Shown here in pieces: positions 1-21,901 of a stretch of 64,000 bases of DNA. Within the stretch, counting starts at the first letter, position 1, and each line of letters opens with the position of its first letter. Position numbers and translations under genes: made by a program. Source of the stretch: Amphiura filiformis (taxonomy: Eukaryota > Echinodermata > Ophiuroidea > Amphilepidida > Amphiuridae); NCBI RefSeq assembly GCF_039555335.1, contig NC_092642.1, positions 20,960,382-21,024,381 of the forward strand. Direction: 5' to 3'. The notes below the pieces were generated by a model. It saw nothing but the letters and a program-made list of their open reading frames with translations, was not told where the DNA came from and did not search any database.

Positions 1-1
1 A

Positions 2-292
2 CTGTGCGAACAATTCCATGCGTATTCACGACTAGATAAAGATGGCAACAAGGTACAGATTCATTACACTTTCTCCGATGCTCATTTTGTGATATCTCCG
101 TATAATCAATATCATTTACCCCAAACCGTTTTGATGCAGGAAATCATGAATATGGGGTTCAGAGTTCATAACACAATGCCCGACTACCAGGAACTGGATT
201 ATAATAACGTTAAACAATGGTTTATTAAAGATAAAGAGAGTTCACAACACAATGCCGGTCTACCAGCAATTAAAGACAAAGAACGTTCGTAA
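2..292 (+). CDS. KCTD-like BTB protein, type A, 3' end only (5' truncated by window edge)
   Basis: The reading frame is open from position 2 to the TAA at 290-292 and is identical to the C-terminal 96 codons of the complete gene at 12224-12949. Only the variable C-terminal region is present, including the LPQTVLMQEIMNMGF segment that corresponds to the conserved ALKLELLNLGF segment of the other copies, and the tail KQWFIKDKESS. The BTB half would lie left of the window. The last 20 or so codons are a read-through: the family stop after ESS (TCA TAA in later repeat units) is TCA CAA here, so translation runs into the next repeat unit and ends in KDKERS. Nothing in the sequence shows whether it is expressed. 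Confidence 0.8.
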   Translation: MCEQFHAYSRLDKDGNKVQIHYTFSDAHFVISPYNQYHLPQTVLMQEIMNMGFRVHNTMPDYQELDYNNVKQWFIKDKESSQHNAGLPAIKDKERS

Positions 293-1232
293 TACAATGC
301 CGGTCTACCAGCAATTGGATCATAGTCAACAATGGTTTATTAAAGACAAAGAGAGTTCACAACACAATGCCGGTCTACAAAGAACGTTCGTAACACTATG
401 CCGGTCTCACCAGCAATTGGATCATAGTAACATAAAACAATGGTTTATTAAAGATAAAGTGAGTTCATAACTCAATGCCGGTCTACCAGCAATTGGATCG
501 AATGCGAGACGTCTCACCCCGAAACACCATTGGATCATAGTAACGTAAAACAATGGTTTATTAAAGATAAAGAGAGTTCATAACACAATGCCGGTCTACC
601 AACAATCGGATCATAGTAACATAAAACAATGGTTTATTAAAGATAAAGAGAGTTCATAACTCAATGCCGGTCTACTAGCAATTGGATCATAGTAACATAA
701 AACAATGGTTTATTAAAGATAAAGAGAGTTCATAACACAATGCCGGTCTACCAGCAATTGGATCATAGTAACATAAAACAATGGTTTATTAAAGATAAAG
801 AGAGTTCATAACACAATGCCGGTCTGCCAGCAATTGGATCATAGTAATATAAAACAACGGTTTATTAAAGATAAAGAGAGTTCATAACACAATGCCGGTC
901 TGCCAGCAATTGGATCATAGTAACATAAAACAATGGTTTATTAAAGATAAAGAGAGTTCATAACACAATGCCGGTCTACCAGCAATTGGAGCATAGTAAC
1001 GTAAAACAATGGTTTATTAAAGATAAAGAGAGTTCACAGCACAATGCCGGTCTACCAGCAATTGGAGCATAGTAACATAAAACAATGGTTTATTAAAGAT
1101 AAAGAGAGTTCATAACACTATGGCTGACAACCAGGAGATGGATCCAAATAATATAAAACAATGGTTTATCAAAGACAAAGTAAATTCATAACACAATGTC
1201 TTAATAACAGGATCTGGATCATCATGATCATA
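172..1232 (+). repeat. 76-bp minisatellite derived from the C-terminal codons of the type A gene
   Basis: About 13 units of a 76-bp repeat; successive copies of the CAATGG word lie 76 bp apart between 627 and 931. The first unit is the coding tail of the gene ending at 292. Most later units read ATG, 22 further codons (MPVYQQLDHSN... to ...IKDKESS) and TAA, followed by 4 nt and the next ATG. The units around 300-520 are rearranged, with deletions and a short insertion near 500-520. The array is interrupted at 1232 by an inverted-repeat transposon and continues as decayed units to about 2080. The same array occurs at 12829-13889. Confidence 0.9.
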
Positions 1233-1940
1233 AACGCATTCCAAAAAGAAAGTATCCAGTTTGATTTTGGTCCATAAATCAAAGATGGTGTCTTAAATCA
1301 AGACCTACCAAACGTATGGTACAGATGAATTTATTCCGCACAGTTTGATACCTCATTTGTCCAATTCGATGAAGAATTGATGACACAGTGACCTTTTAAA
1401 TGCAATCACCTCAATTTTAAAAGTTGCAGTAATCCCTATGTGGTTTTCTTCCTGCTTCTAGTCAAGATTCTTCATAAAGGTACACAATAATAAAGACGGT
1501 ATAAGACTGTTTGACTTCACTTCATGTGTTTTATTCAATACAGATGCTCTTTTATTCCTTCCGCAATGTTTTACTCTTCACAGTCAATATCTGGTATGTC
1601 CTCCTAGCTCCTGCTGCATCAATGACTGCCAAACAGACATCTGTGGCGCATGCTTTTAGTGAGACGCCTGATGCGCCCTGGCCTTGATCTATCGCTGCCC
1701 ATATTGAGCATGTTGAGTAGCAGGACCAAATCAATAGAAATTTACTGCAACTTTTAAAATTGAGGCGATTGCATTCAAAAGATCATTGTGTCATCAATTC
1801 TGCATCGATTTAGACAAATGAGGTACCAAAATGTGCGGAATAAATTTATCGGTAACATACTTTTGGAAGGTCTTGATTTAAGACCCCATCTTTGACTTAT
1901 GGACCAAAATCAAACTGGATACTTTCTTTTGGGATGCGTT
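1233..1940. mobile_element. Non-autonomous inverted-repeat transposon, TA target site
   Basis: Long inverted arms (about 1233-1436 and 1740-1940) begin AACGCATTCC and end GGGATGCGTT, flanked by TA on both sides (1231-1232 and 1941-1942). It interrupts a 76-bp repeat unit: uninterrupted units read GATCATAGTAAC at the junction, so the empty site carries one TA. This fits a Tc1/mariner-like target preference. The roughly 300-bp middle has no recognisable transposase. Confidence 0.8.
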
Positions 1941-2628
1941 TAGTAACATACAATAATGGTTTATTAAAGCCACAGTCATGACAGTGAGCTTATGACACAA
2001 TATCTGAATACCAGTAACTGGATCCTTGTAACATAAAACAATGGGTTTTTTAAGACAAAGAGGCCGGGGTTCAATATTGTTTGCATTAGTAATTTGAATT
2101 GAATACGATTTCATAATAAATTATACATCAATGTCTTGCGTTTTTGAAATATTTTGTTAATCATCCGCATCGCAATGTATCGATATGCATTGTTCTCTTT
2201 CTCTCCCTCTCCCTCTAGAATATTTGTGCGCCCATGGTGTATTTTGGCTTCTATTTTGGAATTATGTCTTGATAAGAGATTTTAATGCCTTATGTTAAGA
2301 GAGTAACTAAAAATATTCTCATAGACAGCACTGTTAAGTGGCCAAGATACTAAGTGAAATTTCATTCATTGTACCTAAGTATTTCGGCTTAAAATAACCA
2401 GACAACCTTCTTGACAGTGTTATTTGTATTATTCCATATTTAGCAAATAACAAAAAAATGAAACTGGACCAAAATCGTACATTATTATGGCTTTAAAGCA
2501 GCATTAACCATTTAACTTGCACCATCACATTGCTTTGATTTAGACTTGTTAAACAATTTGGGTGAAAGAATTAACTTTATTTTGTAATGTTCTGAAATAT
2601 TGTACCGGTGTTATAGTTGCCTTACGTT
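1941..2628. other. Decayed 76-bp units, then shared spacer
   Basis: Positions 1941-2080 hold two decayed 76-bp units. The rest is a non-coding spacer that recurs at 8480-8718 joined to 9173-9460, and in part at 25230-25420 and 27090-27370. It contains short pyrimidine runs near 2197-2216 and no gene that can be supported. Confidence 0.6.
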
Positions 2629-2808
2629 CAGGCCCGTACGCAGGGGGAGGGGGGTGCTGGCCCCAATTTGTAAAAGTATACAAAAGTCCCAAAAATTGCA
2701 GAATTTGCGAGCGTAGTTTTTTGTCCACTTTTCACAAAATCGCCCCCCCTGGAAAAAGATCCACTTTTCAAAATCAGCACCCCAAATGAAATCCTGCATA
2801 CGGGCCTG
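2629..2808. mobile_element. hAT-like MITE with 8-bp target-site duplication
   Basis: A 180-bp element with terminal inverted repeats CAGGCCCGTACGCAGG and CCTGCATACGGGCCTG. It is flanked by the 8-bp direct repeat CTTACGTT at 2621-2628 and 2809-2816. The paralogous spacer near 9460 has the same flanks with a single copy of that word and no element. An 8-bp duplication and CAG-type ends are typical of the hAT superfamily. The inside is rich in G and C homopolymers and codes for nothing. Confidence 0.88.
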
Positions 2809-3924
2809 CTTACGTTACCTTCTTGCATTACGTCATTGACAGTAGCGTGCCCCTCTGACCAAAGGGCAAAGGAAAAGAAAAAGGGCTAATTGCACGCATC
2901 GTCCCAATAAACATGATAAAGTCTTTTGAGGCTCGAAGACATGTAGGGCGAATTTCTCGACGGGTGGCTTAGCAATTGGCTTGTCTAGCCTCAAGGCTTA
3001 AGAGGTCGTAAGACCAGGCTTAACTGAAAACGTATTTTCCGAAGCACGGCTACCATAGCCTCGAGGCTTCGTTAGCACGTGGGCCAGGCTTGTAGGATTA
3101 GCCACAGGCTTCAGTAAAATTTGCATTTATCGAAATAAGTCTTCTGTAGCCGTAGTCTACGCAAGCCTGTTAGACCAGGCTTACAGCGGCTTTTCTTGGC
3201 CCTGCCTCAGAGCAGGTCTTATAGGTCGTAAGCCTTGGTCTATTTCAATTTACAAATTATTTAAATTGTAACGCAAAGTTTATCTTTGATATTTTTGACG
3301 GTATTTCAATTAACATGAGTAAGCAATCGCGTAACTGGGGGGGGGGGGCTCTTGCCCCCCCCCCCCCCCCCATGAAAAAGGTAAATTAGGCCTACTTCTG
3401 AGAGTTATTAATTAACCTCATATTTGGTCATTTTAACCTTAAAACTCAATTTTAATGTTAAATAAATTGCATTTATCCCACTTTTGTACCATTTTGTCAC
3501 CAGCTTTAATAGCTTAAATATGGAATTTGTACCATAATTTTTTCAAAACACAAAACACCAAAAAAAGTCAAAAAGAAATCTACGCCAATGTTCCGGGGAC
3601 ACATTCCAAGCAGATCCTATAACTCCTCAGACCCACTCCACCCTTTACAATCCCAAACAGCATGAACGATGCCTGCCCCTCATTTATTATGTTTGCCCCC
3701 GCTCTCCCCCACCCCCAAATGAAAATGTCTAGTTACGCCACTGTGGGTAAGTAATTGTTCGATTTAGTTGAACATTTCAGCATTTTATTTCAGTGTTCAT
3801 TTGAGTTAGTTGATTTTTTTAAGTAGCTGTTGCTATCATAAGACCTACTCATTTTGAATGATGATTTTTTTAACAACGAATATAATTTTAAAAAAATTCT
3901 TTCATCATCATCATGATCATCCGA
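2809..3924. other. Gene-free repeat segment with AGGCTT-rich stretch and G/C tracts
   Basis: No supportable gene. 2940-3240 is unusually rich in the words AGGCTT and AAGCCT in both orientations. 3340-3372 is a G run facing a C run, and it differs from the duplicate at 16003-16041, as does 3545-3580 from 16205-16235. The stretch begins near CAGTAGCGT and ends near ACGCCACTG (3735-3743), which may be degraded terminal repeats. Confidence 0.45.
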
Positions 3925-4223
3925 AACGTTTTGAAGATTTTGACCTGCTGAAGGAAGCTGATTTCTACAAGATTCCAGAACTGATTAGAGCAATTCGAAC
4001 AAAAAAGGAAAAGAACTGAGAAGTCAGTTTAATAATGATATCGTGAGTGGGAAGTATATCGCACTGGAGGTATTATATGCCAAGTCATTTTCCAGATCAA
4101 AAAGTGCACATTCTGGGCCACGAATTTGGATCAAAAACCTGCGAACGATTGCAATATCAAACAGTTCTCGTATTGTAAAAATAGACTATCAAGATGATAA
4201 ACAACACCAAGAAATGTGTACTT
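3925..4223 (+). pseudogene. Type A KCTD-like gene fragment
   Basis: Sequence from ...FEDFDLL through EADFYKIPELIRAIR and into the linker matches the middle of the type A gene at 12224-12949 (about 12447-12680). The BTB start is missing, the frame stops at KEKN-TGA near 4019, and small deletions follow. The right end is cut by the transposon at 4224, beyond which type A-like 3' flank continues at 4906. The identical fragment at 16587 keeps one codon lost here. It is a decayed internal piece of a paralogue, not a working gene. Confidence 0.8.
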
Positions 4224-4905
4224 CCCAGCAAACACAAAAACGTTTTAAATAAGTTATATTTTGGCTTTTGGTTTAGGTAAAAACGTTTTAATAACATTAA
4301 AATGTCGGGTTATATAAAGGTCATTATAACGTTTTAAACGTTTTGTATGAAAACACACTACAACAATATTTTTAGATGTTTTCAAAAAATGTTATTGTAA
4401 ACTATTTTTTGCAAACATTTTTGCCAAATATTTTGACAACACTTAAATAACATTATGTTAAAATATTTGAACCCAGCAAACACAGAAATGTTTTTAAAAT
4501 GTTTTTTTTTCAACAATTTTAATAACATTTAAATGTCGGGTTATATAAAGGTTATGAAAACGTTTTTAAAACGTTATTGCAAATATTTTGGGCAAACATT
4601 TTTCGTAAAATATTTTATCAACCCCAAAATAACATTCTGTTTAGAATGTTTTGTATCAAGTTTTCAATGTTTTTAGAATGTTATCAAAACGTTTTTATAC
4701 CCTTTATATAACCCGACATTTAAACGTTTTCTGTAAAACATTTTTGTTTGCTGAGCAGTAGATTATCAAAAAATGTTTTTTTAAGGTTATGAAACGGTTT
4801 TATACTCTTAATATAACCCTTTATATAACCCGACATTTAAACGTTTTCTGACAACCTTTTATAACCTTTTGCGAATGATGTCGAAAACGTTTTGTGTTTG
4901 CTGGG
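4224..4905. mobile_element. Inverted-repeat element with CCCAGCAAACAC ends
   Basis: The element starts CCCAGCAAACACAAAAACG and ends with the inverse GTTTGCTGGG. Its interior repeats AAACGTTTT and ATAACCCGACATTTAAACG-like words in both orientations. The diverged segment near 31040-31060 has the flanks joined without the element, so it is an insertion. Copies occur at 16888-17565 and 58288-58680, with a decayed relative at about 11500-11803. No coding capacity. Confidence 0.85.
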
Positions 4906-5813
4906 ATATGCTTTGATTTTAATCAGAAATCATGCCAGTAAAAGCTATCTTCTGAAATTGTGTAATATTCCATCCTTCAATTCTCTGCTGTCACAAGACT
5001 CCTGCACCAGGACTGTAAGAACATAACTCTTAATCGCAGTGGATGATGCGTGAAAGCCGGGGAGGTCTACATTGAACATAAGTGTCGTTCTTCACACTGT
5101 AACTGTGAACACAATGAAACAACCAGTTGTTTTATATTAAAAAGTATTCCAAAGTCGAGGCATATTCTAAATATTAATTGTCACATTTGATCTTCAGCTG
5201 GTGCTTCATCATCAGTGTGATCAGGACCAAGGTTGTAATTTCTATTTGAATATAAGCATTGTAAGATTGGTAATTCTATAAAGAAATGATTTCAATCTAT
5301 CATCATCAACCATATCATAACAGAATGAGATAAGATTTTTTTTCTTCGAATATTTACTAGAAAAGATGGTGGGGAGCGAAGTCTAAAAATCGATTTCATG
5401 ATACTAGTACTCAAAGAGAATCTGGTATTGACATGTCAGTATTAATGTATGTCTTATTAACGAAGGGAAATGTATCATGTTTAGTATCCTAATAATTGCA
5501 TGAATTTGCTCTTTTTTTAAATATGTATTTTGATTTTGATTTCCCCTCGGCTAATGCGCTAATCCTAGTGAAATATAAAACGGTTCAAATGGTATCGAGA
5601 CTTTTCGGACACCCTGTACAACCCCCGGGTACAACAATGGTTACAGCTACAGAGCCTCTACAGTGAGCTCATAACACTATGTCTGGATACCAGCAACTAA
5701 CTTGATCCTAATATAATATAAAACAAATGGGGGTTTTAAAAGACAAAGATGGTTCAATATTGTTTGCATTAGTTATTTGACTTGAATACGATCTTATAAT
5801 AAATTAAACATAA
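4906..5813. other. Shared intergenic spacer without genes
   Basis: A non-coding stretch that recurs, diverged, at 31050-31293, 32166-32365 and 32621-32830, where two insertions interrupt it. It includes one decayed 76-bp repeat unit at about 5665-5760. I see no gene. Confidence 0.6.
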
Positions 5814-5950
5814 TTTGGCGCCGATAAGACACCGTAGTGAAGGAAACACGTCCTGGGTCATAACCTCATGATTTGTGCATGATGATATATTGCGTGATCC
5901 GTCGTGCTTATATGCTCTCTAGACGGTTGAATGCTGCAATTTGGGGTGTG
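5814..5950 (+). promoter_or_regulatory. Conserved upstream module of the KCTD-like genes
   Basis: About 135 bp lying 317 bp before the ATG at 6131. The same module recurs before most B-type copies (18472, 22363, 27581, 29169, 59110, 62775; part of it at 38471) and once without a gene at 9633. Shared words include GGCGTCGATA, GACACCGTA, GGAAGGAA..TCCTG, TTGCGTGAT and CTAGACGG..GAATG. Position and conservation suggest a promoter or 5' UTR element; function is inferred. Confidence 0.5.
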
Positions 5951-6130
5951 AATATTTAAAATTGTAATAATTTGCCAACTGAACCTAAAGAATTTTGGGG
6001 AACTACTACTACAAGGATTAATATTATTGTTATGTTTGAAAAATAATAGAAACACTACTGTATGCATGTATTGGATGCTGAAGATCTGCAATAGCACATT
6101 GATCTACTCGTATCCAGTAGAATTGGCAAA

Positions 6131-6810
6131 ATGGCTGAAATCGTTAAGCTTAACGTTGGAGGTGTTATTTACACTACATCACGGTCAACATTGACTAAAT
6201 ATCCTAACTCTATGCTCGGTACTATGTTCAGTGGACGCTTACCAACAACGAAAGATGAACACGGTAACTATTGGATCGATAGCAATGGAGAAATATTCCG
6301 CTATGTGCTGGAATTCTTACGGCGTGGTTGCCTGGTGGTTCCAGATCATTTTCAGGATTTTGAACTTCTGGAAAAAGATGCTGATTTTTATCAGATTCCT
6401 GAATTATCCGAAGCAGTGAAAGCAAGAAGGTGTGCACAATATGGGAACCAGGCCACTGAAGAACGTCTTGTAGTCAAAATTAAAATGGATGCGACGGCTT
6501 ATAAAGACCACTTGTTGCAAATCTTTGGTTCAAAAGATGCAATTGGTAGATTACAATTGACCCTTCATCAGTATCAACGCGAACAAGTCAATAAGATGAA
6601 ATGTGGTGAAAGCAGCATCGTAATTAAGAAGTATCGTCCCTTATTCTTCCGCTGGCTGCCTTGAAACTTGAACTGCTCAATTTAGGCTTCAATATGTGTC
6701 AGGATATGCCTGATGATGTGCCCGATTTAGACCTGCAGAGCGTGTCCGATTTAGACCTGCAGAGCGTGATAGGACCCACTTATACATACTGGTGTATGAA
6801 ACAAAAGTAA
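6131..6810 (+). pseudogene. KCTD-like BTB protein, type B copy 1, frame broken by 1-nt deletion
   Basis: The ATG sits in CAAAATGG, with A at -3 and G at +4. The BTB/T1 domain spans residues 1-95 with LNVGGVIYTTS, TLTKYPNSMLGTMFSG, GNYWID and FRYVLEFLRRG. The C-terminal domain follows, but one C missing from a CCCC run near 6636 shifts the frame, and the track ends at a TGA near 6664 (177 codons). The old frame resumes to TAA at 6810 with the normal family ending TYWCMKQK. The near-identical copy at 18789 lacks this deletion but carries a different 1-nt change. A sequencing error in a homopolymer is as likely as true inactivation. Confidence 0.8.
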
Positions 6811-7098
6811 TGGGCAGTGGCAATGGAAAATCGTGCTACAAGTGAGGGGCATCTAGAGGTACGGAGCCAGGACCCACTGAAGACCTCCGGTGAATTTTAA
6901 TAATGATGATTTTAACTTCTTCGCGGTCATTTCTTTAAACATCAAAATGGTGGATTTTAGAATTAAATTATAACCAGATAACATAAAAATGATGCTGTTA
7001 ATTCAATCCTGGGGAATGTGACATAAGTTTATCTCATGGCTCTGATTGTCTAGACCTGCTTTTTCCCAAGAATTTGAATTAAGCTTTAATACGATACC

Positions 7099-7104
7099 AA
7101 TAAA
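7099..7104 (+). terminator. Candidate polyadenylation signal AATAAA
   Basis: AATAAA about 290 bp after the family stop at 6810. The same position and context are kept at 19759-19764 and 24537-24542 after the sister genes, which supports it as the shared 3' processing signal. Confidence 0.5.
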
Positions 7105-7196
7105 GCTATTATCTCGCTTAAGTGCTCGGATAGCAACGTTTGCACAGTGTTTTTCTGGGACATGAGAGCACATCAGACATATGAATTCTGAATACG

Positions 7197-8330
7197 GGAT
7201 CATAGTAACATAAAACAATGGTTTATTAAAGATAAAGAGAGTTCATAACTCAATGCCGGTCTACCAACAATTGGATCATAGTAACATAAAACAATGGTTT
7301 AATAAAGATAAAGAGGGTTCATAACACAATGCCGGTCTACCAGCAATTGGAGCATAGTAACATAAAACAATGGTTTATTAAAGACAAAGAGAGTTCCTAA
7401 CACAGTGCCGGTCTACCAGCAATTGGATCATAGTAACATAAAACAATGGTTTATTAAAGATAAAGAGAGTTCACAACACTATGCCGGTCTATCAGCAATT
7501 GGATCATAGTAACATAAAACAATGGTTTTTAAAGATAAAGAGAGTTCTTAACACAACGACGGTCTACCAGCGATTTGGATCATAGTAACATAAAACAACG
7601 GTTTATTAAAGATAAAGAGAGTTCACAACACAATGCCGGTCTACCAGCAATTGGATCATAGTAACATAAAATAACGGTTTATTAAAGATAAAGAGAGTTT
7701 CTAACTCAATGCCAGTCTACCAGCAATTGGATCATAGTAACATAAAACAATGGTTTATTAAAGATAAAGAGAGTTCACAACACAATGCCGGTCTACCAGC
7801 AATTGGATCATAGTAACATAAAACAATGGTTTATTAAAGATAAAGAGAGTTCATAACTCAATGCCGGTCTACCAGCAATTGGATCATAATAACATAAAAC
7901 AATGGTTTAATAAAGATAAAGAGAGTTCATAACTCAATGCCGGTCTACCAGCAATTGGATCATAATAACATAAAACAATGGTTTAATAAAGATAAAGAGA
8001 GTTCATAACTCAATGCCGGTCTACCAGCAATTGGATTATAGTAACATAAAACAATGGTTTAATAAAGATAAAGAGAGTTCATAACTCAATGCCGGTCTAC
8101 CAGCAATTGGAGCATAGTAACATAAAACAATGGTTTAATAAAGATAAAGAGAGTTCATAACTCAATGCCGGTCTACCAGCAATTGGATCATAGTAACATA
8201 AAACAATGGTTTATTGAAGATAAAGAGAGTTCATAACACTATGGCTGACTACCAGGAGATGGATCCAAATAACATAAAACAATGGTTTATCAAAGACAAA
8301 GAAAATTCATAACACAATGTCTGAATAACA
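7197..8330 (+). repeat. 76-bp minisatellite array downstream of type B copy 1
   Basis: About 14 well-preserved units start 386 bp after the gene's stop and just beyond its AATAAA; two or three decayed units extend the array to about 8470. Most units keep ATG, frame and TAA. Exceptions include a 2-nt deletion near 7527 and an altered start near 7556. The last good unit (about 8241-8312) reads MADYQEMDPNN..., closer to a gene tail than the MPVYQQLDHSN units. The array is repeated at 19857-20990. Confidence 0.9.
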
Positions 8331-8718
8331 TGATCTGGATCATAGTAACATACAATAATGGTTTATTAAAGCCACAGTCGTGACAATGAGCCCATGACAC
8401 AATGTATGAAAACCAGTAACCATGGTAACTGGATCCTTGTAACATAAAACAATGGGGGGTTTTAAAAGACAAAGATGGTTCAATATTGTTTGCATTAGTA
8501 ATTTGAATGTCTTGTGTTTCTGAAATATTTTGTTAATCATCCGCAATTCCGCATCGCAATCTCGATATGCATTGCTCTCTTTCTCCCCTTCTCCATCTAG
8601 AATATTTGTGCGCCCATGTCGTATTTTGGCTTCTAATTTGTAATTAATGTCTTGATAAGAGATTTTAATGCCTTATGTTAAGACAGTAATTAATATCCCC
8701 ATAGAACAGCACAGTTAA
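8331..8718. other. Decayed repeat units and shared spacer
   Basis: Decayed 76-bp units to about 8470, then the same spacer found at 2080-2340. No gene seen. Confidence 0.55.
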
Positions 8719-9172
8719 GGGGTGGTGCAATAATTATGTGTACCCCGGGTGGTGAATTATAGGGGGGCAAAGATGCTTTGGCATTCAAAAGGGGGTCAAG
8801 CATTTTTGGCAGGTCAAAAGGGGGGGGGGGGCAAGCAATTTTTGGCACAGATATTTTGGGTACCATTTTATATTAAGCCCTAAAAAGGCGTAGGAAAACG
8901 TTAGGAACACGTTCAAATATGCAAAATATCCTGCTCGCTGCGCTCGCATTATATGATAAGACAATTTAAGGTTTTAAATTCGGGTTCCCCAAAATCTTGC
9001 ATGTGTAAGGGGGGGGAGATTTTTGGCACGTCAAAAGGGGGGGCAAAGTTTTTTGGCACGTCGAAGGGGGGGCAAAGATTTTTGGCACGGCCAAAGGGGG
9101 GGCAAGCGATTTTGGGCAGACCATTTTGAGAATTCACCACCCCAGGGGTACACATAATTATTGCACCACCCC
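8719..9172. mobile_element. Harbinger-like MITE, TAA target-site duplication
   Basis: The ends are GGGGTGGTGCAATAATTATG and its inverse, flanked by TAA at 8716-8718 and 9173-9175. The spacer copies near 2335 and 14993 read TTAAGTGGCC with a single TAA and no element. A 3-bp TAA duplication and GG-rich ends fit PIF/Harbinger. The interior is a set of G tracts separated by TTTTTGGCA-type words, also present in inverse orientation near the right end. It differs strongly from the duplicate at 21379-21901. No transposase. Confidence 0.82.
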
Positions 9173-9632
9173 TAAGCAGCCAAGATGCTAAGTGAAATTT
9201 CATTCATTTTACCTCAGTATTTCGGCTTACAATAACCAGACAACCTTCTTGACAGTGTTATTTGTATTATTCCATATTTAGCAAATAACAAAAAATGAAA
9301 CTGGACCAAAATCGTACATTATTATGGCTTTAAAGCAGCATTAACCATTTCACTTGCACCATCACATTGCTTTTATTTAGACTTGTTAAACAATTTGGGT
9401 GAAAGAATTAACTTTATTTTGTAATGTTCTGAAATATTGTACCGATGTTATAGTTGGCTTACGTTACCTTCATGCATTTGACAAAAATATGTGTACTTTC
9501 GTATACCTCTCCTTTTACTGTGAGAGATATATGGTGAAAAGAAGAAAAAATCCAATCAAACTCGATCTGCCTTGCATTAGTTATATCGAGAGTTGGGATA
9601 AGGAGGCTGCCTTTTCTTTGTTCTTATCAATT
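9173..9632. other. Shared upstream block with a doubtful small ORF
   Basis: This block recurs at 21902-22362, 27090-27580 and, diverged, 58090-58285, each time ahead of the upstream module. An 85-codon frame at 9399-9656 has a lysine/arginine-rich core (VKRRKNPIK.DLPCIS.IE.WDKEAA) also readable at 27355-27591. At 58190-58285 the start is out of frame with the core. It resembles no known family and may be untranslated. Confidence 0.4.
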
Positions 9633-9785
9633 GGCGTCGATAAGACACCGTACTGAAGGAAACACGTCCTGGGTCATATCGTCATAGCCTCGTGATTTCT
9701 GCATGATGATTTGCGTGATCTGTCGTGCTTATATGTGGTCTAGACGGTCGAATGTTGCAATTTGGCGTCATTCGATGTGAATATA
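9633..9785 (+). promoter_or_regulatory. Orphan copy of the conserved upstream module
   Basis: It matches the module that precedes the B-type genes, and its duplicate at 22363 does precede the gene at 23615. Here the duplicated segment ends 240 bp later and no KCTD-like gene follows within 2 kb; the next gene is the type A copy at 12224. Confidence 0.5.
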
Positions 9786-10023
9786 TTTTTGCTGAACCAG
9801 GAAATGGTATCAGCCTATTATGAGTGAATGTTACTAGGTTACTAGCTTACTAACTCACTAACCATTTGGTCTGAAATGGACATATCTCGAAATGCCACGA
9901 AGGTATGACCCCATGAGTGGTGTCATATGAAAGAGGAAAACATAAAGAATATAATAAAAATATTTCCAAATGTCAGAGATCATCCAGGGGTCACAGGGGT
10001 CAAAAAAAGGTAATTTTAACCAA

Positions 10024-10491
10024 AGCCTTGATGAATCCATTTGTGAGGTCAAGTTTGAGTTTGAGCAAAAATGCTTAGTTTTGGAGAAAATCACCCAAAT
10101 ATATTTTTCTCGAGGAACGTAACAAAAAAATTCGAGAGTGAACAAATTTTTTTAAACTAGATATTAATATCTAGGAACCGGGTTTTTTTTAATATTTTTT
10201 TTTTTAATTGTGATCAACTTCAACATTTTTATATGATTTTTGTGTTTGCTAAAGTTAACATTTTTAACCATTTTGAGGAAAATTTCTGAAAGTTTGTCAA
10301 AATTAAAAAAATAAATAAAACGAGTCTTAGATATTTATATCTAGTTTATACAAATATTTTACTCAGTAATTTTGTATTACGTTTCACAAAAACTATCTGG
10401 TAAAAAAAAGACAGTTTGGGGATTGTTTCCAACATTGTGCGTGCCTTTTTGCTCAAATTTGACCTCACAAATGGATTCACTATGTCTTTGC
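10024..10491. mobile_element. Fold-back repeat at the end of duplication copy 1
   Basis: Arms at about 10024-10075 and 10443-10491 are inverse copies, sharing AATCCATTTGTGAGGTCAA and a TTTGAGCAAAAA-type word. The stretch begins exactly where copies 1 and 2 of the duplication stop matching. The interior (10150-10330) is AT-rich with two TAGATATT..TATCTAG-like words. No coding capacity. Confidence 0.55.
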
Positions 10492-12223: not shown

Positions 12224-12949
12224 ATGTCTGATGAAATAGTGCAACTCAATATTGGAGGACATGTTTATACGTCGTCGCGATTTACGCTGACTCGCTTCCC
12301 AAAGTCTATGCTTGGAACCATGTTCAGCGATCAAAAATCGTTGACACAAGACAAAGATGGACAGTATTGGATTGACGGCAACGGGGAGATGTTCTGTTAT
12401 GTGTTGGATTTCTTACGACGTGGTTGCCTCATGCTCCCGGAACATTTTGAAGATTTTGACCTGCTGGAAAAGGAAGCTGATTTCTACAAGATTCCAGAAC
12501 TGATTAGAGCAATTCGAAGAAAAAAGGGAAAAGAATCGGGAAGTCAGTTAAATAATGATATCGTGAGTGGGGAGTATATCGCAGTGGAGTATTATATGCC
12601 AAGTCATTTTCCAGAACAAAAAGTACACATTTCTGGGCCACGAATTTGGATCGAAAAACTGTGCGAACAATTCCATGCGTATTCACGACTAGATAAAGAT
12701 GGCAACAAGGTACAGATTCATTACACTTTCTCCGATGCTCATTTTGTGATATCTCCGTATAATCAATATCATTTACCCCAAACCGTTTTGATGCAGGAAA
12801 TCATGAATATGGGGTTCAGAGTTCATAACACAATGCCCGACTACCAGGAACTGGATTATAATAACGTTAAACAATGGTTTATTAAAGATAAAGAGAGTTC
12901 ACAACACAATGCCGGTCTACCAGCAATTAAAGACAAAGAACGTTCGTAA
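12224..12949 (+). CDS. KCTD-like BTB protein, type A
   Basis: Complete single-exon gene of 241 codons if started at the MSDEIVQLNIGG methionine; an in-frame ATG 16 codons upstream (12176) is less likely because it adds a tail not seen in relatives. BTB/T1 domain at residues 1-95 with LNIGGHVYTSS, TLTRFPKSMLGTMFS, GQYWIDGNGEMF and LDFLRRG; then EADFYKIPEL and a C-terminal domain ending KQWFIKDK. KCTD proteins usually oligomerise and many serve as Cullin-3 ubiquitin-ligase adaptors; that role here is inferred. The normal stop is lost (TCA CAA for TCA TAA), so about 20 residues encoded by the adjoining 76-bp repeat are appended. No conserved upstream module was found before it, unlike the B-type copies. 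Confidence 0.85.
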   Translation: MSDEIVQLNIGGHVYTSSRFTLTRFPKSMLGTMFSDQKSLTQDKDGQYWIDGNGEMFCYVLDFLRRGCLMLPEHFEDFDLLEKEADFYKIPELIRAIRRKKGKESGSQLNNDIVSGEYIAVEYYMPSHFPEQKVHISGPRIWIEKLCEQFHAYSRLDKDGNKVQIHYTFSDAHFVISPYNQYHLPQTVLMQEIMNMGFRVHNTMPDYQELDYNNVKQWFIKDKESSQHNAGLPAIKDKERS

Positions 12950-13889
12950 TACAATGCCGGTCTACCAGCAATTGGATCATAGTCAACAATGGTTTATTAA
13001 AGACAAAGAGAGTTCACAACACAATGCCGGTCTACAAAGAACGTTCGTAACACTATGCCGGTCTCACCAGCAATTGGATCATAGTAACATAAAACAATGG
13101 TTTATTAAAGATAAAGTGAGTTCATAACTCAATGCCGGTCTACCAGCAATTGGATCGAATGCGAGACGTCTCACCCCGAAACACCATTGGATCATAGTAA
13201 CGTAAAACAATGGTTTATTAAAGATAAAGAGAGTTCATAACACAATGCCGGTCTACCAACAATCGGATCATAGTAACATAAAACAATGGTTTATTAAAGA
13301 TAAAGAGAGTTCATAACTCAATGCCGGTCTACTAGCAATTGGATCATAGTAACATAAAACAATGGTTTATTAAAGATAAAGAGAGTTCATAACACAATGC
13401 CGGTCTACCAGCAATTGGATCATAGTAACATAAAACAATGGTTTATTAAAGATAAAGAGAGTTCATAACACAATGCCGGTCTGCCAGCAATTGGATCATA
13501 GTAATATAAAACAACGGTTTATTAAAGATAAAGAGAGTTCATAACACAATGCCGGTCTGCCAGCAATTGGATCATAGTAACATAAAACAATGGTTTATTA
13601 AAGATAAAGAGAGTTCATAACACAATGCCGGTCTACCAGCAATTGGAGCATAGTAACGTAAAACAATGGTTTATTAAAGATAAAGAGAGTTCACAGCACA
13701 ATGCCGGTCTACCAGCAATTGGAGCATAGTAACATAAAACAATGGTTTATTAAAGATAAAGAGAGTTCATAACACTATGGCTGACAACCAGGAGATGGAT
13801 CCAAATAATATAAAACAATGGTTTATCAAAGACAAAGTAAATTCATAACACAATGTCTTAATAACAGGATCTGGATCATCATGATCATA
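12829..13889 (+). repeat. 76-bp minisatellite array (duplicate of 172-1232)
   Basis: Same unit order and same rearranged units as 172-1232. It begins inside the coding tail of the gene ending at 12949 and is interrupted by the TA-flanked element at 13890. Confidence 0.9.
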
Positions 13890-14597
13890 AACGCATTCCA
13901 AAAGAAAGTATCCAGTTTGATTTTGGTCCATAAATCAAAGATGGTGTCTTAAATCAAGACCTACCAAACGTATGGTACAGATGAATTTATTCCGCACAGT
14001 TTGATACCTCATTTGTCCAATTCGATGAAGAATTGATGACACAGTGACCTTTTAAATGCAATCACCTCAATTTTAAAAGTTGCAGTAATCCCTATGTGGT
14101 TTTCTTCCTGCTTCTAGTCAAGATTCTTCATAAAGGTACACAATAATAAAGACGGTATAAGACTGTTTGACTTCACTTCATGTGTTTTATTCAATACAGA
14201 TGCTCTTTTATTCCTTCCGCAATGTTTTACTCTTCACAGTCAATATCTGGTATGTCCTCCTAGCTCCTGCTGCATCAATGACTGCCAAACAGACATCTGT
14301 GGCGCATGCTTTTAGTGAGACGCCTGATGCGCCCTGGCCTTGATCTATCGCTGCCCATATTGAGCATGTTGAGTAGCAGGACCAAATCAATAGAAATTTA
14401 CTGCAACTTTTAAAATTGAGGCGATTGCATTCAAAAGATCATTGTGTCATCAATTCTGCATCGATTTAGACAAATGAGGTACCAAAATGTGCGGAATAAA
14501 TTTATCGGTAACATACTTTTGGAAGGTCTTGATTTAAGACCCCATCTTTGACTTATGGACCAAAATCAAACTGGATACTTTCTTTTTGGGATGCGTT
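13890..14597. mobile_element. TA-flanked inverted-repeat transposon (duplicate of 1233-1940)
   Basis: Same ends (AACGCATTCC and GATGCGTT) and the same flanking TA. Duplicated with the segment rather than inserted separately, since it interrupts the same repeat unit. Confidence 0.8.
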
Positions 14598-15286
14598 TAG
14601 TAACATACAATAATGGTTTATTAAAGCCACAGTCATGACAGTGAGCTTATGACACAATATCTGAATACCAGTAACTGGATCCTTGTAACATAAAACAATG
14701 GGTTTTTTTAAGACAAAGAGGCCGGGGTTCAATATTGTTTGCATTAGTAATTTGAATTGAATACGATTTCATAATAAATTATACATCAATGTCTTGCGTT
14801 TTTGAAATATTTTGTTAATCATCCGCATCGCAATGTATCGATATGCATTGTTCTCTTTCTCTCCTCTCCTCTAGAATATTTGTGCGCCCATGGTGTATTT
14901 TGGCTTCTATTTTGGAATTATGTCTTGATAAGAGATTTTAATGCCTTATGTTAAGAGAGTAACTAAAAATATTCTCATAGACAGCACTGTTAAGTGGCCA
15001 AGATACTAAGTGAAATTTCATTCATTGTACCTAAGTATTTCGGCTTAAAATAACCAGACAACCTTCTTGACAGTGTTATTTGTATTATTCCATATTTAGC
15101 AAATAACAAAAAAAAATGAAACTGGACCAAAATCGTACATTATTATGGCTTTAAAGCAGCATTAACCATTTAACTTGCACCATCACATTGCTTTGATTTA
15201 GACTTGTTAAACAATTTGGGTGAAAGAATTAACTTTATTTTGTAATGTTCTGAAATATTGTACCGGTGTTATAGTTGCCTTACGTT
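14598..15286. other. Shared spacer (duplicate of 1941-2628)
   Basis: Decayed 76-bp units, then non-coding spacer. It differs from copy 1 by small indels in a pyrimidine run (about 14858-14872) and an A run near 15108. Confidence 0.6.
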
Positions 15287-15474
15287 CAGGCCCGTACGCA
15301 GGGGGGAGGGGGGGGGGTGCTGGCCCCCCAATTTGTAAAAGGATACAAAAAGTGCCAAAAATTGCAGAATTTGCGAGCGTAGTTTTTTGTCCACTTTTCA
15401 CAAAATCGCCCCCCTTGGAAAAAGATCCACTTTTCAAAATCAGCACCCCCAAATGAAATCCTGCATACGGGCCT
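15287..15474. mobile_element. hAT-like MITE (duplicate of 2629-2808)
   Basis: Same ends and the same CTTACGTT duplication (15279-15286 and 15475-15482). It is 8 bp longer than copy 1, mostly through longer G runs. Confidence 0.86.
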
Positions 15475-16586
15475 GCTTACGTTACCTTCTTGCATTACGT
15501 CATTGACAGTAGCGTGCCCCTCTGACCAAAGGGCAAAGGAAAAGAAAAAGGGCTAATTGCACGCATCGTCCCAATAAACATGATAAAGTCTTTTGAGGCT
15601 CGAAGACATGTAGGGCGAATTTCTCGACGGGTGGCTTAGCAATTGGCTTGTCTAGCCTCAAGGCTTAAGAGGTCGTAAGATCAGGCTTAACTGAAAACGT
15701 ATTTCCCGAAGCACGGCTACCATAGCCTCGAGGCTTCGTTAGCACGTGGGCCAGGCTTGTAGGATTAGCCACAGGCTTCAGTAAAATTTGCATTTATCGA
15801 AATAAGTCTTCTGTAGCCGTAGTCTACGCAAGCCTGTTAGACCAGGCTTACAGCGGCTTTTCTTGGCCCTGCCTCAGAGCAGGTCTTATAGGTCGTAAGC
15901 CTTGGTCTATTTCAATTTACAAATTATTTAAATTGTAACGCAAAGTTTATCTTTGATATTTTTGACGGTATTTCAATTAACATGAGTAAGCAATCGCGTA
16001 ACTGGGGGGGCAGTGGTGGAGCTCTTGCCAAAAAAAAAAAAGGTAAATTAGGCCTACTTCTGAGAGTTATTAATTAACCTCATATTTGGTCATTTTAACC
16101 TTAAAAACTCAATTTTTAATGTTAAATAAATTGCATTTATCCCACTTTTGTACCATTTTGTCACCAGCTTTAATAGCTTAAATATGGAATTTGTACCATA
16201 ATTTTTTCAATTCCATCTCCCCCCCATGTCAAAAAGAAATCTACGCCAATGTTCCGGGGACACATTCCAAGCAGATCCTATAACTCCTCAGACCCACTCC
16301 ACCCTTTACAATCCCAAACAGCATGAACGATGCCTGCCCCTCATTTATTATGTTTGCCCCCGCCCTCCCCCACCCCCAAATGAAAATGTCTAGTTACGCC
16401 ACTGTGGGTAAGTAATTGTTCGATTTAGTTGAACATTTCAGCATTTTATTTCAGTGTTCATTTGAGTTAGTTGATTTTTTTTAAGTAGCTGTTGCTATCA
16501 TAAGACCTACTCATTTTGAATGATGATTTTTTTAACAACGAATATAATTTTAAAAAAATTCTTTCATCATCATCATGATCATCCGA
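15475..16586. other. Gene-free repeat segment (duplicate of 2809-3924)
   Basis: Includes the AGGCTT-rich stretch. At 16003-16041 the G/C hairpin-like tract of copy 1 is replaced by GGGGGGGCAGTGGTGGAGC and an A run. No gene. Confidence 0.45.
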
Positions 16587-16887
16587 AACGTTTTGAAGAT
16601 TTTGACCTGCTGGAAAAGGAAGCTGATTTCTACAAGATTCCAGAACTGATTAGAGCAATTCGAACAAAAAAGGAAAAGAACTGAGAAGTCAGTTTAATAA
16701 TGATATCGTGAGTGGGAAGTATATCGCACTGGAGGTATTATATGCCAAGTCATTTTCCAGATCAAAAGTGCACATTCTGGGCCACGAATTTGGATCAAAA
16801 ACCTGCGAACGATTGCAATATCAAACAGTTCTCGTATTGTAAAAATAGACTATCAAGATGATAAACAACACCAAGAAATGTGTACTT
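16587..16887 (+). pseudogene. Type A KCTD-like gene fragment (duplicate)
   Basis: Counterpart of 3925-4223. It retains the LLEKEADFYKIPELIRAIR stretch intact, including a codon lost in copy 1, but has the same TGA after KEKN and no BTB start. Cut at its right end by the transposon at 16888. Confidence 0.8.
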
Positions 16888-17565
16888 CCCAGCAAACACA
16901 AAAACGTTTTAAATAAGTTATATTTTGGCTTTTGGTTTAGGTAAAAACGTTTTAATAACATTAAAATGTCGGGTTATATAAAGGTCATTATAACGTTTTA
17001 AACGTTTTGTATGAAAACACACTACAACAATATTTTTAGATGTTTTCAAAAAATGTTATTGTAAACTATTTTTGCAAACATTTTTGCCAAATATTTTGTC
17101 AATACTTAAATAACATTATGTTAAAATATTTGAACCCAGCAAACACAGAAATGTTTTTAAATGTTTTTTTCAACAATTTTAATAACATTTAAATTTCGGG
17201 TTATATAAAGGTTATGAAAACGTTTTTAAAACGTTATTGCAAATATTTTGGGCAAACATTTTTCGTAAAATATTTTATCAACCCCAAAATAACATTCTGT
17301 TTAGAATGTTTTGTATCAAGTTTTCAATGTTTTTAGAATGTTATCAAAACGTTTTTATACCCTTTATATAACCCGACATTTAAACGTTTTCTGTAAAACA
17401 TTTTTGTTTGCTGAGCAGTAGATTATCAAAAAATGTTTTTTTAAGGTTATGAAACGGTTTTATACTCTTAATATAACCCTTTATATAACCCGACATTTAA
17501 ACGTTTTCTGACAACCTTTTATAACCTTTTGCGAATGATGTCGAAAACGTTTTGTGTTTGCTGGG
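16888..17565. mobile_element. CCCAGCAAACAC inverted-repeat element (duplicate of 4224-4905)
   Basis: Same ends and same insertion point in the type A-like flank as copy 1. Confidence 0.85.
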
Positions 17566-18471
17566 ATATGCTTTGATTTTAATCAGAAATCATGCCAGTA
17601 AAAGCTATCTTCTGAAATTGTGTAATATTCCATCCTTCAATTCTCTGCTGTCACAAGACTCCTGCACCAGGACTGTAAGAACATAACTCTTAATCGCAGT
17701 GGATGATGCGTGAAAGCCGGGGAGGTCTACATTGAACATAAGTGTCGTTCTTCACACTGTAACTGTGAACACAATGAAACAACCAGTTGTTTTATATTAA
17801 AAGTATTCCAAAGTCGAGGCATATTCTAAATATTAATTGTCACATTTGATCTTCAGCTGGTGCTTCATCATCAGTGTGATCAGGACCAAGGTTGTAATTT
17901 CTATTTGAATATAAGCATTGTAAGATTGGTAATTCTATAAAGAAATGATTTCAATCTATCATCATCAACCATATCATAACAGAATGAGATAAGATTTTTT
18001 TTCTTCGAATATTTACTAGAAAAGATGGTGGGGAGCGAAGTCTAAAAATCGATTTCATGATACTAGTACTCAAAGAGAATCTGGTATTGACATGTCAGTA
18101 TTAATGTATGTCTTATTAACGAAGGGAAATGTATCATGTTTAGTATCCTAATAATTGCATGAATTTGCTCTTTTTTTAAATATGTATTTTGATTTTGATT
18201 TCCCCTCGGCTAATGCGCTAATCCTAGTGAAATATAAAACGGTTCAAATGGTATCGAGACTTTTCGGACACCCTGTACAACCCCCGGTACAACAATGGTT
18301 ACAGCTACAGAGCCTCTACAGTGAGCTCATAACACTATGTCTGGATACCAGCAACTAACTTGATCCTAATATAATATAAAACAAATGGGGGTTTTAAAAG
18401 ACAAAGATGGTTCAATATTGTTTGCATTAGTTATTTGACTTGAATACGATCTTATAATAAATTAAACATAA
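17566..18471. other. Shared intergenic spacer (duplicate of 4906-5813)
   Basis: No gene. A decayed 76-bp unit lies at about 18325-18420. The 67-codon frame at 18155 depends on a 1-nt difference from copy 1 and is not supported. Confidence 0.6.
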
Positions 18472-18610
18472 TTTGGCGCCGATAAGACACCGTAGTGAAG
18501 GAAACACGTCCTGGGTCATAACCTCATGATTTGTGCATGATGATATATTGCGTGATCCGTCGTGCTTATATGCTCTCTAGACGGTTGAATGCTGCAATTT
18601 GGGGTGTGAA
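18472..18610 (+). promoter_or_regulatory. Conserved upstream module before type B copy 2
   Basis: Same sequence as 5814-5950, 317 bp ahead of the ATG at 18789. Confidence 0.5.
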
Positions 18611-18788
18611 TATTTAAAATTGTAATAATTTGCCAACTGAACCTAAAGAATTTTGGGGAACTACTACTACAAGGATTAATATTATTGTTATGTTTGAAAA
18701 ATAATAGAAACACTACTGTATGCATGTATTGGATGCTGAAGATCTGCAATAGCACATTGATCTACTCGTATCCAGTAGAATTGGCAAA

Positions 18789-19505
18789 ATGGCTGAAATC
18801 GTTAAGCTTAACGTTGGAGGTGTTATTTACACTACATCACGGTCAACATTGACTAAATATCCTAACTCTATGCTCGGTACTATGTTCAGTGGACGCTTAC
18901 CAACAACGAAAGATGAACACGGTAACTATTGGATCGATAGCAATGGAGAAATATTCCGCTATGTGCTGGAATTCTTACGGCGTGGTTGCCTGGTGGTTCC
19001 AGATCATTTTCAGGATTTTGAACTTCTGGAAAAAGATGCTGATTTTTATCAGATTCCTGAATTATCCGAAGCAGTGAAAGCAAGAAGGTGTGCACAATAT
19101 GGGAACCAGGCCACTGAAGAACGTCTTGTAGTCAAAATTAAAATGGATGCGACGGCTTATAAAGACCACTTGTTGCAAATCTTTGGTTCAAAAGATGCAA
19201 TTGGTAGATTACAATTGACCCTTCATCAGTATCAACGCGAACAAGTCAATAAGATGAAATGTGGTGAAAGCAGCATCGTAATTAAGAAGTATCGTCCCCT
19301 TATTCTTCCGCTGGCTGCCTTGAAACTTGAACTGCTCAATTTAGGCTTCAATATGTGTCAGGATATGCCTGATGATGTGCCCGATTTAGACCTGCAGAGC
19401 GTGTCCGATTTAGACCTGCAGAGCGTGATAGGGACCCACTTATACATACTGGTGTATGAAACAAAAGTAATGGGCAGTGGCAATGGAAAATCGTGCTACA
19501 AGTGA
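18789..19505 (+). CDS. KCTD-like BTB protein, type B copy 2 (altered C terminus)
   Basis: Single exon, 238 codons, start in CAAAATGG. BTB/T1 domain at residues 1-95 (LNVGGVIYTTS, SMLGTMFSG, NYWIDSNGEIFRYVLEFLRRG, EKDADFYQIPEL), then a linker (RRCAQYGNQATEE) and a C-terminal domain with LLQIFG and ALKLELLNLGFNMCQ. Near the end a 24-bp in-frame direct repeat encodes DLDLQSVS twice. Just after it, one extra G in GGG (copy 1 has GG) shifts the frame, so the family ending TYTYWCMKQK is replaced by HLYILVYETK... and the protein runs 23 codons past the usual stop. Either a sequencing error or a real change of the tail. Likely Cullin-3 adaptor type by family; untested. Confidence 0.82.
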   Translation: MAEIVKLNVGGVIYTTSRSTLTKYPNSMLGTMFSGRLPTTKDEHGNYWIDSNGEIFRYVLEFLRRGCLVVPDHFQDFELLEKDADFYQIPELSEAVKARRCAQYGNQATEERLVVKIKMDATAYKDHLLQIFGSKDAIGRLQLTLHQYQREQVNKMKCGESSIVIKKYRPLILPLAALKLELLNLGFNMCQDMPDDVPDLDLQSVSDLDLQSVIGTHLYILVYETKVMGSGNGKSCYK

Positions 19506-19856
19506 GGGGCATCTAGAGGTACGGAGCCAGGACCCACTGAAGACCTCCGGTGAATTTTAATAATGATGATTTTAACTTCTTCGCGGTCATTTCTTTAAAC
19601 ATCAAAATGGTGGATTTTAGAATTAAATTATAACCAGATAACATAAAAATGATGCTGTTAATTCAATCCTGGGGAATGTGACATAAGTTTATCTCATGGC
19701 TCTGATTGTCTAGACCTGCTTTTTCCCAAGAATTTGAATTAAGCTTTAATACGATACCAATAAAGCTATTATCTCGCTTAAGTGCTCGGATAGCAACGTT
19801 TGCACAGTGTTTTTCTGGGACATGAGAGCACATCAGACATATGAATTCTGAATACG

Positions 19857-20990
19857 GGATCATAGTAACATAAAACAATGGTTTATTAAAGATAAAGAGA
19901 GTTCATAACTCAATGCCGGTCTACCAACAATTGGATCATAGTAACATAAAACAATGGTTTAATAAAGATAAAGAGGGTTCATAACACAATGCCGGTCTAC
20001 CAGCAATTGGAGCATAGTAACATAAAACAATGGTTTATTAAAGACAAAGAGAGTTCCTAACACAGTGCCGGTCTACCAGCAATTGGATCATAGTAACATA
20101 AAACAATGGTTTATTAAAGATAAAGAGAGTTCACAACACTATGCCGGTCTATCAGCAATTGGATCATAGTAACATAAAACAATGGTTTTTAAAGATAAAG
20201 AGAGTTCTTAACACAACGACGGTCTACCAGCGATTTGGATCATAGTAACATAAAACAACGGTTTATTAAAGATAAAGAGAGTTCACAACACAATGCCGGT
20301 CTACCAGCAATTGGATCATAGTAACATAAAATAACGGTTTATTAAAGATAAAGAGAGTTTCTAACTCAATGCCAGTCTACCAGCAATTGGATCATAGTAA
20401 CATAAAACAATGGTTTATTAAAGATAAAGAGAGTTCACAACACAATGCCGGTCTACCAGCAATTGGATCATAGTAACATAAAACAATGGTTTATTAAAGA
20501 TAAAGAGAGTTCATAACTCAATGCCGGTCTACCAGCAATTGGATCATAATAACATAAAACAATGGTTTAATAAAGATAAAGAGAGTTCATAACTCAATGC
20601 CGGTCTACCAGCAATTGGATCATAATAACATAAAACAATGGTTTAATAAAGATAAAGAGAGTTCATAACTCAATGCCGGTCTACCAGCAATTGGATTATA
20701 GTAACATAAAACAATGGTTTAATAAAGATAAAGAGAGTTCATAACTCAATGCCGGTCTACCAGCAATTGGAGCATAGTAACATAAAACAATGGTTTAATA
20801 AAGATAAAGAGAGTTCATAACTCAATGCCGGTCTACCAGCAATTGGATCATAGTAACATAAAACAATGGTTTATTGAAGATAAAGAGAGTTCATAACACT
20901 ATGGCTGACTACCAGGAGATGGATCCAAATAACATAAAACAATGGTTTATCAAAGACAAAGAAAATTCATAACACAATGTCTGAATAACA
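19857..20990 (+). repeat. 76-bp minisatellite array (duplicate of 7197-8330)
   Basis: Unit-by-unit copy of the array at 7197, with the same mutated units, so no unit has been gained or lost since the duplication. Begins after the AATAAA at 19759-19764. Confidence 0.9.
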
Positions 20991-21378
20991 TGATCTGGAT
21001 CATAGTAACATACAATAATGGTTTATTAAAGCCACAGTCGTGACAATGAGCCCATGACACAATGTATGAAAACCAGTAACCATGGTAACTGGATCCTTGT
21101 AACATAAAACAATGGGGGGTTTTAAAAGACAAAGATGGTTCAATATTGTTTGCATTAGTAATTTGAATGTCTTGTGTTTCTGAAATATTTTGTTAATCAT
21201 CCGCAATTCCGCATCGCAATCTCGATATGCATTGCTCTCTTTCTCCCCTTCTCCATCTAGAATATTTGTGCGCCCATGTCGTATTTTGGCTTCTAATTTG
21301 TAATTAATGTCTTGATAAGAGATTTTAATGCCTTATGTTAAGACAGTAATTAATATCCCCATAGAACAGCACAGTTAA
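20991..21378. other. Decayed repeat units and shared spacer (duplicate)
   Basis: Counterpart of 8331-8718; no gene. Confidence 0.55.
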
Positions 21379-21901
21379 GGGGTGGTGCAATAATTATGTG
21401 TACCCCGGGGTGGTGAATTATAGGGGGGGGGGGCGCAAAGATTTTTTGGCCTGCGAAAGGGGGGAGCCTTTTTTGGCAGGTCGGCCGGGCTTGTCAACTA
21501 ATTTTTGGCAGGTCAAAAGGGGGTCAAGCGATTTTTGGCAGGTCGAAAAGGGGGGGCAAGCAATTTTTGGCACAGATATTTTGGGTACCATTTTATATTA
21601 AGCCCTAAAAAGGCGTAGGAAAACGTTAGGAACACGTTCAAATATGCAAAATATCCTGCTCGCTGCGCTCGCATTATATGATAAGACAATTTAAGGTTTT
21701 AAATTCGGGTTCCCCAAAATCTTGCATGTGTAAGGGGGGGGGGCAAAGATTTTTTGGCACGTAGAAGGGGGGGAAGGGTTTTTTGGCACGTCGAAGGGGG
21801 GCAAAGATTTTTGGCACGGCCAAAGGGGGGGCAAGCGATTTTGGGCAGACCATTTTGAGAATTCACCACCCCAGGGGTACACATAATTATTGCACCACCC
21901 C
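21379..21901. mobile_element. Harbinger-like MITE (duplicate of 8719-9172, different interior)
   Basis: Same ends and TAA flanks as copy 1 but about 70 bp longer. The G-tract interior (about 21420-21560) has extra and rearranged TTTTTGGCAGG-type units. Confidence 0.82.

Follow-up and report, generated by a model that had tools for sequence, protein, structure and literature searches.

Why should a tandem repeat whose period is not a multiple of three look, unit after unit, like a row of complete small genes? This question is raised by a series of 76-bp units in the window (the whole stretch of 64,000 nucleotides analysed here), which follow one another behind a KCTD-like BTB gene and whose consensus has a start and a stop codon of its own. 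The first-pass annotation left two readings side by side: a simple recent amplification of a gene end, or a series of translated micropeptides whose sequence mimics the BTB protein's C-terminal tail. Here it is argued, with a probability of about 0.87, that the arrays are a coding-derived minisatellite born of an out-of-frame 76-bp duplication between GTTCA repeats, that the mini-ORFs are by-products of that duplication, and that a coding function is most likely absent.

Tandem Repeats Finder reports a 76-bp array at 529-1198 (8.8 copies, 93% matches, score 1123), and profile matches run head to tail from one end of array A1 to the other, with older or degenerate matches continuing to 2063; the array thus lies where it had been annotated. 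The consensus unit reads M-P-V-Y-Q-Q-L-D-H-S-N-I-K-Q-W-F-I-K-D-K-E-S-S-stop followed by 4 nt (that is, ATG, 22 codons and TAA), an ORF of 23 residues with an A at -3 of its ATG. It matches the tail of the type A BTB gene at 12224-12949, which bears out the proposed derivation of the unit from that gene's C-terminal tail. The further claim that most units keep the frame is too strong: an intact 23-codon frame occurs in only 6 of the 13 unit matches of A1 and, once redundant copies are removed, in 17 of the 31 core units (defined below); it is absent from the other 14, four of which are array edges or truncated. Similarly, the units had been said to differ mainly by substitutions, which is true insofar as 22 of the 31 core units are free of indels and truncation, whereas five carry indels (four of them frame-breaking) and four are truncated.

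Each array in the window has a 76-bp period and comprises 7 to 16 unit matches, degenerate ones counted (Table 1). Where five arrays had been counted, only three are distinct, because A1 and A3 (13 of 13 unit matches) and A2 and A4 (16 of 16) are base-identical within a duplicated block. This block, 1-10024, recurs at 12658-22754 with an offset of ~12.66 kb, in two pieces that are 98.9% and 97.9% identical; many of the 121 listed differences between the copies (among which events past 10024 fall outside the block) are, as judged by eye, short indels or lie in homopolymer or low-complexity runs. The block repeat may be a very recent duplication or may be two haplotypes joined in assembly. Between the block copies of the type B gene there is a one-base length difference near 6637, and the type B frame at 6095-6664 is shorter than its block copy at 18753-19505 (189 versus 250 codons, stop to stop). 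The inverted-repeat element of A1 and A3 sits within a degenerate unit, and none is present at the equivalent site in A2 or A5. Elsewhere, at 4200-4910, the motifs AACGTTTT and AAAACGTT are abundant by eye in both orientations, and this region may be a non-autonomous element of palindromic form. Units of 32 bp make up a second minisatellite, which occupies 45296-45860, 46474-46679 and 61979-62394; its array at 46474 overlaps a minus-strand ORF (46054-46548) that we take to resemble the end of a LINE reverse transcriptase and for which a Pfam search gave no match.

Table 1. Positions within the window of the 76-bp arrays, of the type A gene and of the features bearing on their origin.
Feature	Position	Strand	Remarks
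Type A gene copy 1, 3' end	1-292	+	Start cut by window edge; CDS ends with TAA at 290-292
AGAGTTCATAACACAATGCC within the gene	161-180	+	Codons R-V-H-N-T-M-P; at unit junctions reads ..SS-stop, CACA, ATG
Array A1	177-1194	+	13 unit matches; the first is the gene tail, the last (1121) a divergent terminal unit, MADNQEMDPNN...
Inverted-repeat (MITE-like) element	1231-1942; copy 13888-14599		Arms ~202 bp, 91% alike
Degenerate tail of A1	1940-2120	+	Two more degenerate units, damaged relic of old gene end, AATAAA at 2115-2120
Relic of inferred ancestral type A C-terminus, KDKDGSILFALVI-stop	5739-5780	+	Holds GTTCA
Array A2	7195-8482	+	Downstream of type B KCTD gene; divergent terminal unit 8242; degenerate units 8323, 8425
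Relic of ancestral type A 3' end	8465-8499	+	Distal edge of A2; GTTCA aligns with junction GTTCA
Type A KCTD-like gene	12224-12949	+	Unbroken ORF, 241 aa; KCTD1 match over residues 1-200
GTTCA pair	12821-12825; 12897-12901	+	Gene body and first unit junction; one repeat period apart
Array A3	12834-13851	+	Base-identical to A1 in its unit matches
Array A4	19855-21142	+	Unit matches 19855-21037 base-identical to A2; degenerate unit 21085
Array A5	24633-25228	+	Six core units plus degenerate 25077, 25164; chimera 24998-25071

BTB genes whose reading frames are uninterrupted form a cluster in the window, and the Pfam domain BTB_2 was found in all four of the gene ORFs tested; among the titles listed by a literature search on KCTD expansions, none concerned such a cluster. 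In the parent, the type A gene (gene A), the domain is of the BTB_2 (T1-like BTB) type (PF02214, E 3.8e-17), and the closest solved relatives are KCTD15 and KCTD1, which points to an animal as the source of the DNA. A phmmer comparison with KCTD1 aligns residues 1-200, a span that may take in a C-terminal domain of the KCTD1 type, with a score not above that of the BTB part alone against KCTD15. Among viral contigs the gene A protein had seven pattern matches, none of which was confirmed as a relative. In gene A copy 1 the CDS crosses the first unit, whose own stop is replaced by CAA (245-247), and the protein extends 15 residues into the next, shortened unit before reaching TAA. Because the first unit has CAA and not TAA, gene A now ends in repeat-derived residues (QHNAGLPAIKDKERS); it has lost its old C-terminus, and this is the sole visible effect of the arrays on a protein. 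The altered end falls beyond the stretch with a KCTD1 match, since that homology reaches to residue 200 and R199 is the first residue of the duplicated segment.

The neighbouring genes are themselves unevenly related along their length. The BTB halves of the KCTD genes at 18753, 23579, 38720, 59333 and 62967 are alike even at silent sites (dS 0.11-0.44), and the C halves of the same five genes are mostly far apart (dS 0.13-1.8, dN up to 0.74). Pair by pair, dS is clearly lower in the BTB half in nine of ten comparisons; in the recent pair 18753/23579 the BTB and C halves have nearly equal values (0.112 and 0.132). This pattern suggests gene conversion in the BTB halves of neighbouring KCTD genes.

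The source of the start and stop codons can be read from a single 20-mer, AGAGTTCATAACACAATGCC, which has 14 exact matches in the window and none in 100 shuffles. Two of these sites lie in the gene (at 161 and 12818) and 12 at unit junctions of A1, A3 and A5; no exact match falls in A2 or A4, whose junctions are at least one base off. Gene A reads ..GF-R-V-H-N-T-M-P-D-Y-Q-E-L-D-Y-N-N-V-K-Q-W-F-I-K-D-K.. through this site, and paralogues are coding at the equivalent position as well (LNLGF-NMCQN-VPDEAEPEK.. and LNLGF-NMCQD-IPDDVPE..); hence the coding reading, R-V-H-N-T-M-P, is the older one. At the junctions the same 20-mer comes after ..GATAAAG and is read one base off, as GAG-AGT-TCA-TAA, CACA, ATG. 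By this correspondence the ATG of a unit is the gene's internal Met codon, and the stop of a unit is the gene's caT AAc (its H and N codons) taken out of frame, which it is because the duplicated stretch measures 76 (= 3 × 25 + 1) bp. Given a tandem copy of a 76-base stretch such as this, the start and stop pattern must arise, and the best account of every start and stop is an incidental effect of copying with a one-base offset. That each unit restarts its own frame is likewise a by-product of offset copying, the start and stop being pieces of internal codons of the gene.

A passage of PMC3389668, crediting Haber and Louis (1998), describes how slippage or unequal crossing-over duplicates a stretch that lies between direct repeats of 5-10 bp, after which the stretch multiplies, and another, crediting Taylor and Breden (2000), holds that slipped-strand mispairing at non-contiguous repeats can found arrays; passages of PMC2820488 were drawn on as well. 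For the present arrays we infer, as the founding act, slippage or unequal crossing-over between two 5-bp direct repeats, GTTCA, one within the R-V-H codons and the other just past ...K-D-K-D, ahead of the old stop, which would have yielded the 76-bp unit. The second copy would then have been read one base off, such that ..caT AAc.. became a stop and the internal Met became the ATG of the first mini-ORF. After this, further unequal exchange would have added units, leaving the original C-terminus, together with older and divergent units, cut off on the distal side, and one array would also have ended up behind a type B gene.

What remains of the former gene end is as would be expected of such a founding act. 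The inferred old end, ..AAAGACAAAGATGGTTCAATATTGTTTGCATTAGTTATTTGA, would have encoded K-D-K-D-G-S-I-L-F-A-L-V-I-stop. Its conserved core is found at 5739, at 29094 and, past A2, at 8465 (with block copies at 18397 and 21125), and again, with one mismatch, past A5 at 25211; a damaged old gene end lies past A1, near 2069. The ancestral end ...AAAGACAAAGATGGTTCAATATTG... has its GTTCA aligned under the GTTCA of the junction ...AAAGATAAAGAGAGTTCATAAC..., and in a profile alignment of 8425-8482 and 25164-25228 the relic GTTCA likewise falls under that of the junction, with the preceding bases in step. (The spacing from GTTCA to GTTCA within the gene, where copy 1 has the pair at 164 and 240, is no separate evidence, since it follows from the period itself.) Both the exact breakpoint and the ancestral distance are placed by alignment, because two bases beside the founding GTTCA are not those of the relics (GAGA versus GATG), indels occur in the relic units, and a type A gene free of the array was not encountered. 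The simpler of the two original readings, amplification of a gene end, is thus supported, and a founding event can be proposed for it in the form of a 76-bp out-of-frame duplication between GTTCA repeats.

The later history of the units can be followed in part. The consensus of the three arrays is a derived form, MPVYQQLDHS. Terminal units 1121 (MADNQEMDPNN) and 8242 (MADYQEMDPNN), which are 21% and 17% off the consensus, share with the gene tail the residues D3, E6 and N10. Unit 24998-25071 of A5 is a clean chimera of a core unit with a terminal unit and points to unequal exchange, as do the different unit numbers of the homologous arrays A2 and A5. Mean differences between units are 6.2-8.1% between arrays and 5.4-9.3% within them, and this near equality implies that much of the spread predates, or cuts across, the separation of the arrays.

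If the mini-ORFs encode functional peptides, then their substitutions may be expected to carry a trace of it. A core set of 31 units (11 from A1, 14 from A2 and 6 from A5) was used for the substitution tests; set aside were the identical copies A3 and A4, the gene-tail unit 177, the terminal units 1121 and 8242, the degenerate units 8323 and 25077, and matches outside the arrays. The test was repeated on 30 and on 26 units, and distinct changes were treated as independent. Forty-two distinct changes were found: 23 non-silent, 11 silent, 2 nonsense, 2 start losses, 1 stop loss (which by itself occurs in five units), 1 silent stop change and 2 in the spacer. Over the 31 units they are spread almost evenly across codon positions (14/13/13). 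Silent changes total 11 where 8.6 would be expected (P 0.17), or 12 where 9.2 would be (P 0.13) once the silent stop change is counted, and non-silent changes 28 against 30.4 expected, a ratio of 0.70, or 0.78 without the chimera; for these counts (N 28, S 12), P ranges from 0.13 to 0.36 across the three unit sets. Nor does the true frame stand out when silent changes are counted in all six frames; coding on the reverse strand was dropped as a candidate on the same counts, none of the six being distinguished. Disruptive distinct changes number 5 against 5.9 expected (P 0.42), such that, within the available power, frame-destroying changes are about as frequent as expected, which the first-pass annotation had itself named, beside an absence of transcripts, as speaking against translated units. 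Frame integrity is slightly but not significantly above neutral, 17 of the 22 indel-free units being intact versus 14.7 and 14.6 expected (P 0.19 and 0.33); unit 7558, whose start is lost (ACG), carries an indel and so stands outside this intact-frame test. In simulations with a true ratio of 0.3, a non-silent count as high as that seen arose in 1% of trials, and with a true ratio of 0.5 in 24%. Strong constraint on the mini-ORFs (a ratio of 0.3 or stronger) is therefore unlikely, and weak constraint (a ratio of about 0.5 or above) may be present. As a yardstick, dN/dS is ~0.13-0.22 for BTB halves and 0.35-0.74 for C halves over ten pairs of the genes B2, B3, E, F and G; gene A pairs were left out of the yardstick, their dS being saturated or >2. 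By this measure the arrays cannot be clearly told apart from a C half, for which reason the case against translation leans more on the origin of the start and stop codons and on the broken units (14 of 31) than on the ratio.

These results bear most directly upon the proposal that the units form a row of translated micropeptides mimicking the BTB protein tail, whether as separate small genes or as re-initiated downstream ORFs. In its favor are the 23-residue consensus ORF with its A at -3, the frame retained by 17 core units, the slight shortfall of non-silent changes (not significant at a ratio of 0.70), and the position of A1 between the gene and an AATAAA, by which the array may be 3' UTR. 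The out-of-frame duplication already accounts for both start and stop, however, and across the 31 core units the stop is lost in five, the start is lost by substitution in two, two have nonsense changes, four have frame-breaking indels and four are affected by edges or truncation (some units being counted twice); integrity does not significantly exceed the neutral null, and it is unlikely that constraint is as strong as 0.3 or stronger (P 0.01). With a parental Met as ATG, an out-of-frame TAA and 14 of 31 frames absent, the micropeptide proposal has found no positive support apart from the existence of the frame, and it seems exceedingly improbable that the units are translated in this way. 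The same very low probability attaches to the narrower form in which some of the mini-ORFs, with their good start contexts, yield tail-mimicking peptides by translation of the gene A 3' UTR and are under weak constraint; were it true, then new small genes could originate in bulk through the birth of a frame-shifting minisatellite. In-frame polyprotein repeats were also considered and were dropped, the period not being a multiple of three and a stop being part of the consensus unit.

Somewhat less remote, yet still very improbable, is the notion that the arrays hold C-terminal tails in reserve, from which exchange with the gene end swaps both stop and tail in a fast-changing family of adaptors. 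Such exchange would fit the repeat-derived end that gene A has acquired through CAA in place of TAA, and the rapid divergence of paralogue C halves while most BTB halves stay alike. Against it, a single gene tail of this kind was seen, the same in both copies; the homology to KCTD1 stops before the tail and nothing shows that the tail matters; and loss of the old C-terminus is equally well regarded as a degenerative effect. It is more doubtful still, by a little, that the units are repeated regulatory elements of a 3' region, such as poly(A) signals or RNA structures. ATTAAA and AATAAA are the usual poly(A) signals, and the former occurs in 20 and the latter in 5 of the 31 core units, but the bases of the hexamer vary among units and are inherited from the F-I-K codons; moreover, the longest invariant run is 5, no longer than chance would give (P 0.83), and the fold of the single unit tried (741-816, one base off the ATG) is ordinary (z -0.71). 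Across the window no Rfam family reached its gathering score and a tRNA search (bacterial code) found none; in prokaryote genome contigs the unit pattern had no exact match. A by-product of out-of-frame duplication remains the preferred reading.

How, then, does this array compare with known systems? Polyubiquitin is an in-frame coding tandem repeat, and the present arrays resemble it in that a coding stretch has been multiplied in tandem; they differ in that their period is not divisible by three, their consensus unit carries a stop and no long frame extends from one end of the array to the other. With regard to KCTD1 and KCTD15, the likeness lies in the parent gene, which matches KCTD1 over residues 1-200, and the difference in the repeated tail, all but two residues of which lie beyond the matching part. 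A search of the literature combining minisatellites with last exon, stop codon, unequal crossing and repeat unit found no paper, and others gave nothing closer. As in the minisatellites of Haber and Louis, to the extent that PMC3389668 outlines them, short direct repeats would have flanked the founding stretch, here GTTCA on either side of a 76-bp unit; unlike in that outline, the unit is coding, and the shifted frame makes the units look like complete small genes. As in the slipped-strand model of Taylor and Breden, outlined in the same source, scattered short repeats would found the array and the end units differ from the inner ones; unlike in that model as outlined there, the terminal units are older and divergent and not simply shorter. 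The array is real, its likely origin is legible in the sequence, and it belongs to a known kind of minisatellite, made instructive by its frame shift. It offers a readable example of minisatellite birth in a gene, in which the parent, the likely founding repeats, the frame shift, a chimera and the stranded old end are all present, and it illustrates how an array resembling many small genes can arise without selection, which is a trap for the annotation of small ORFs.
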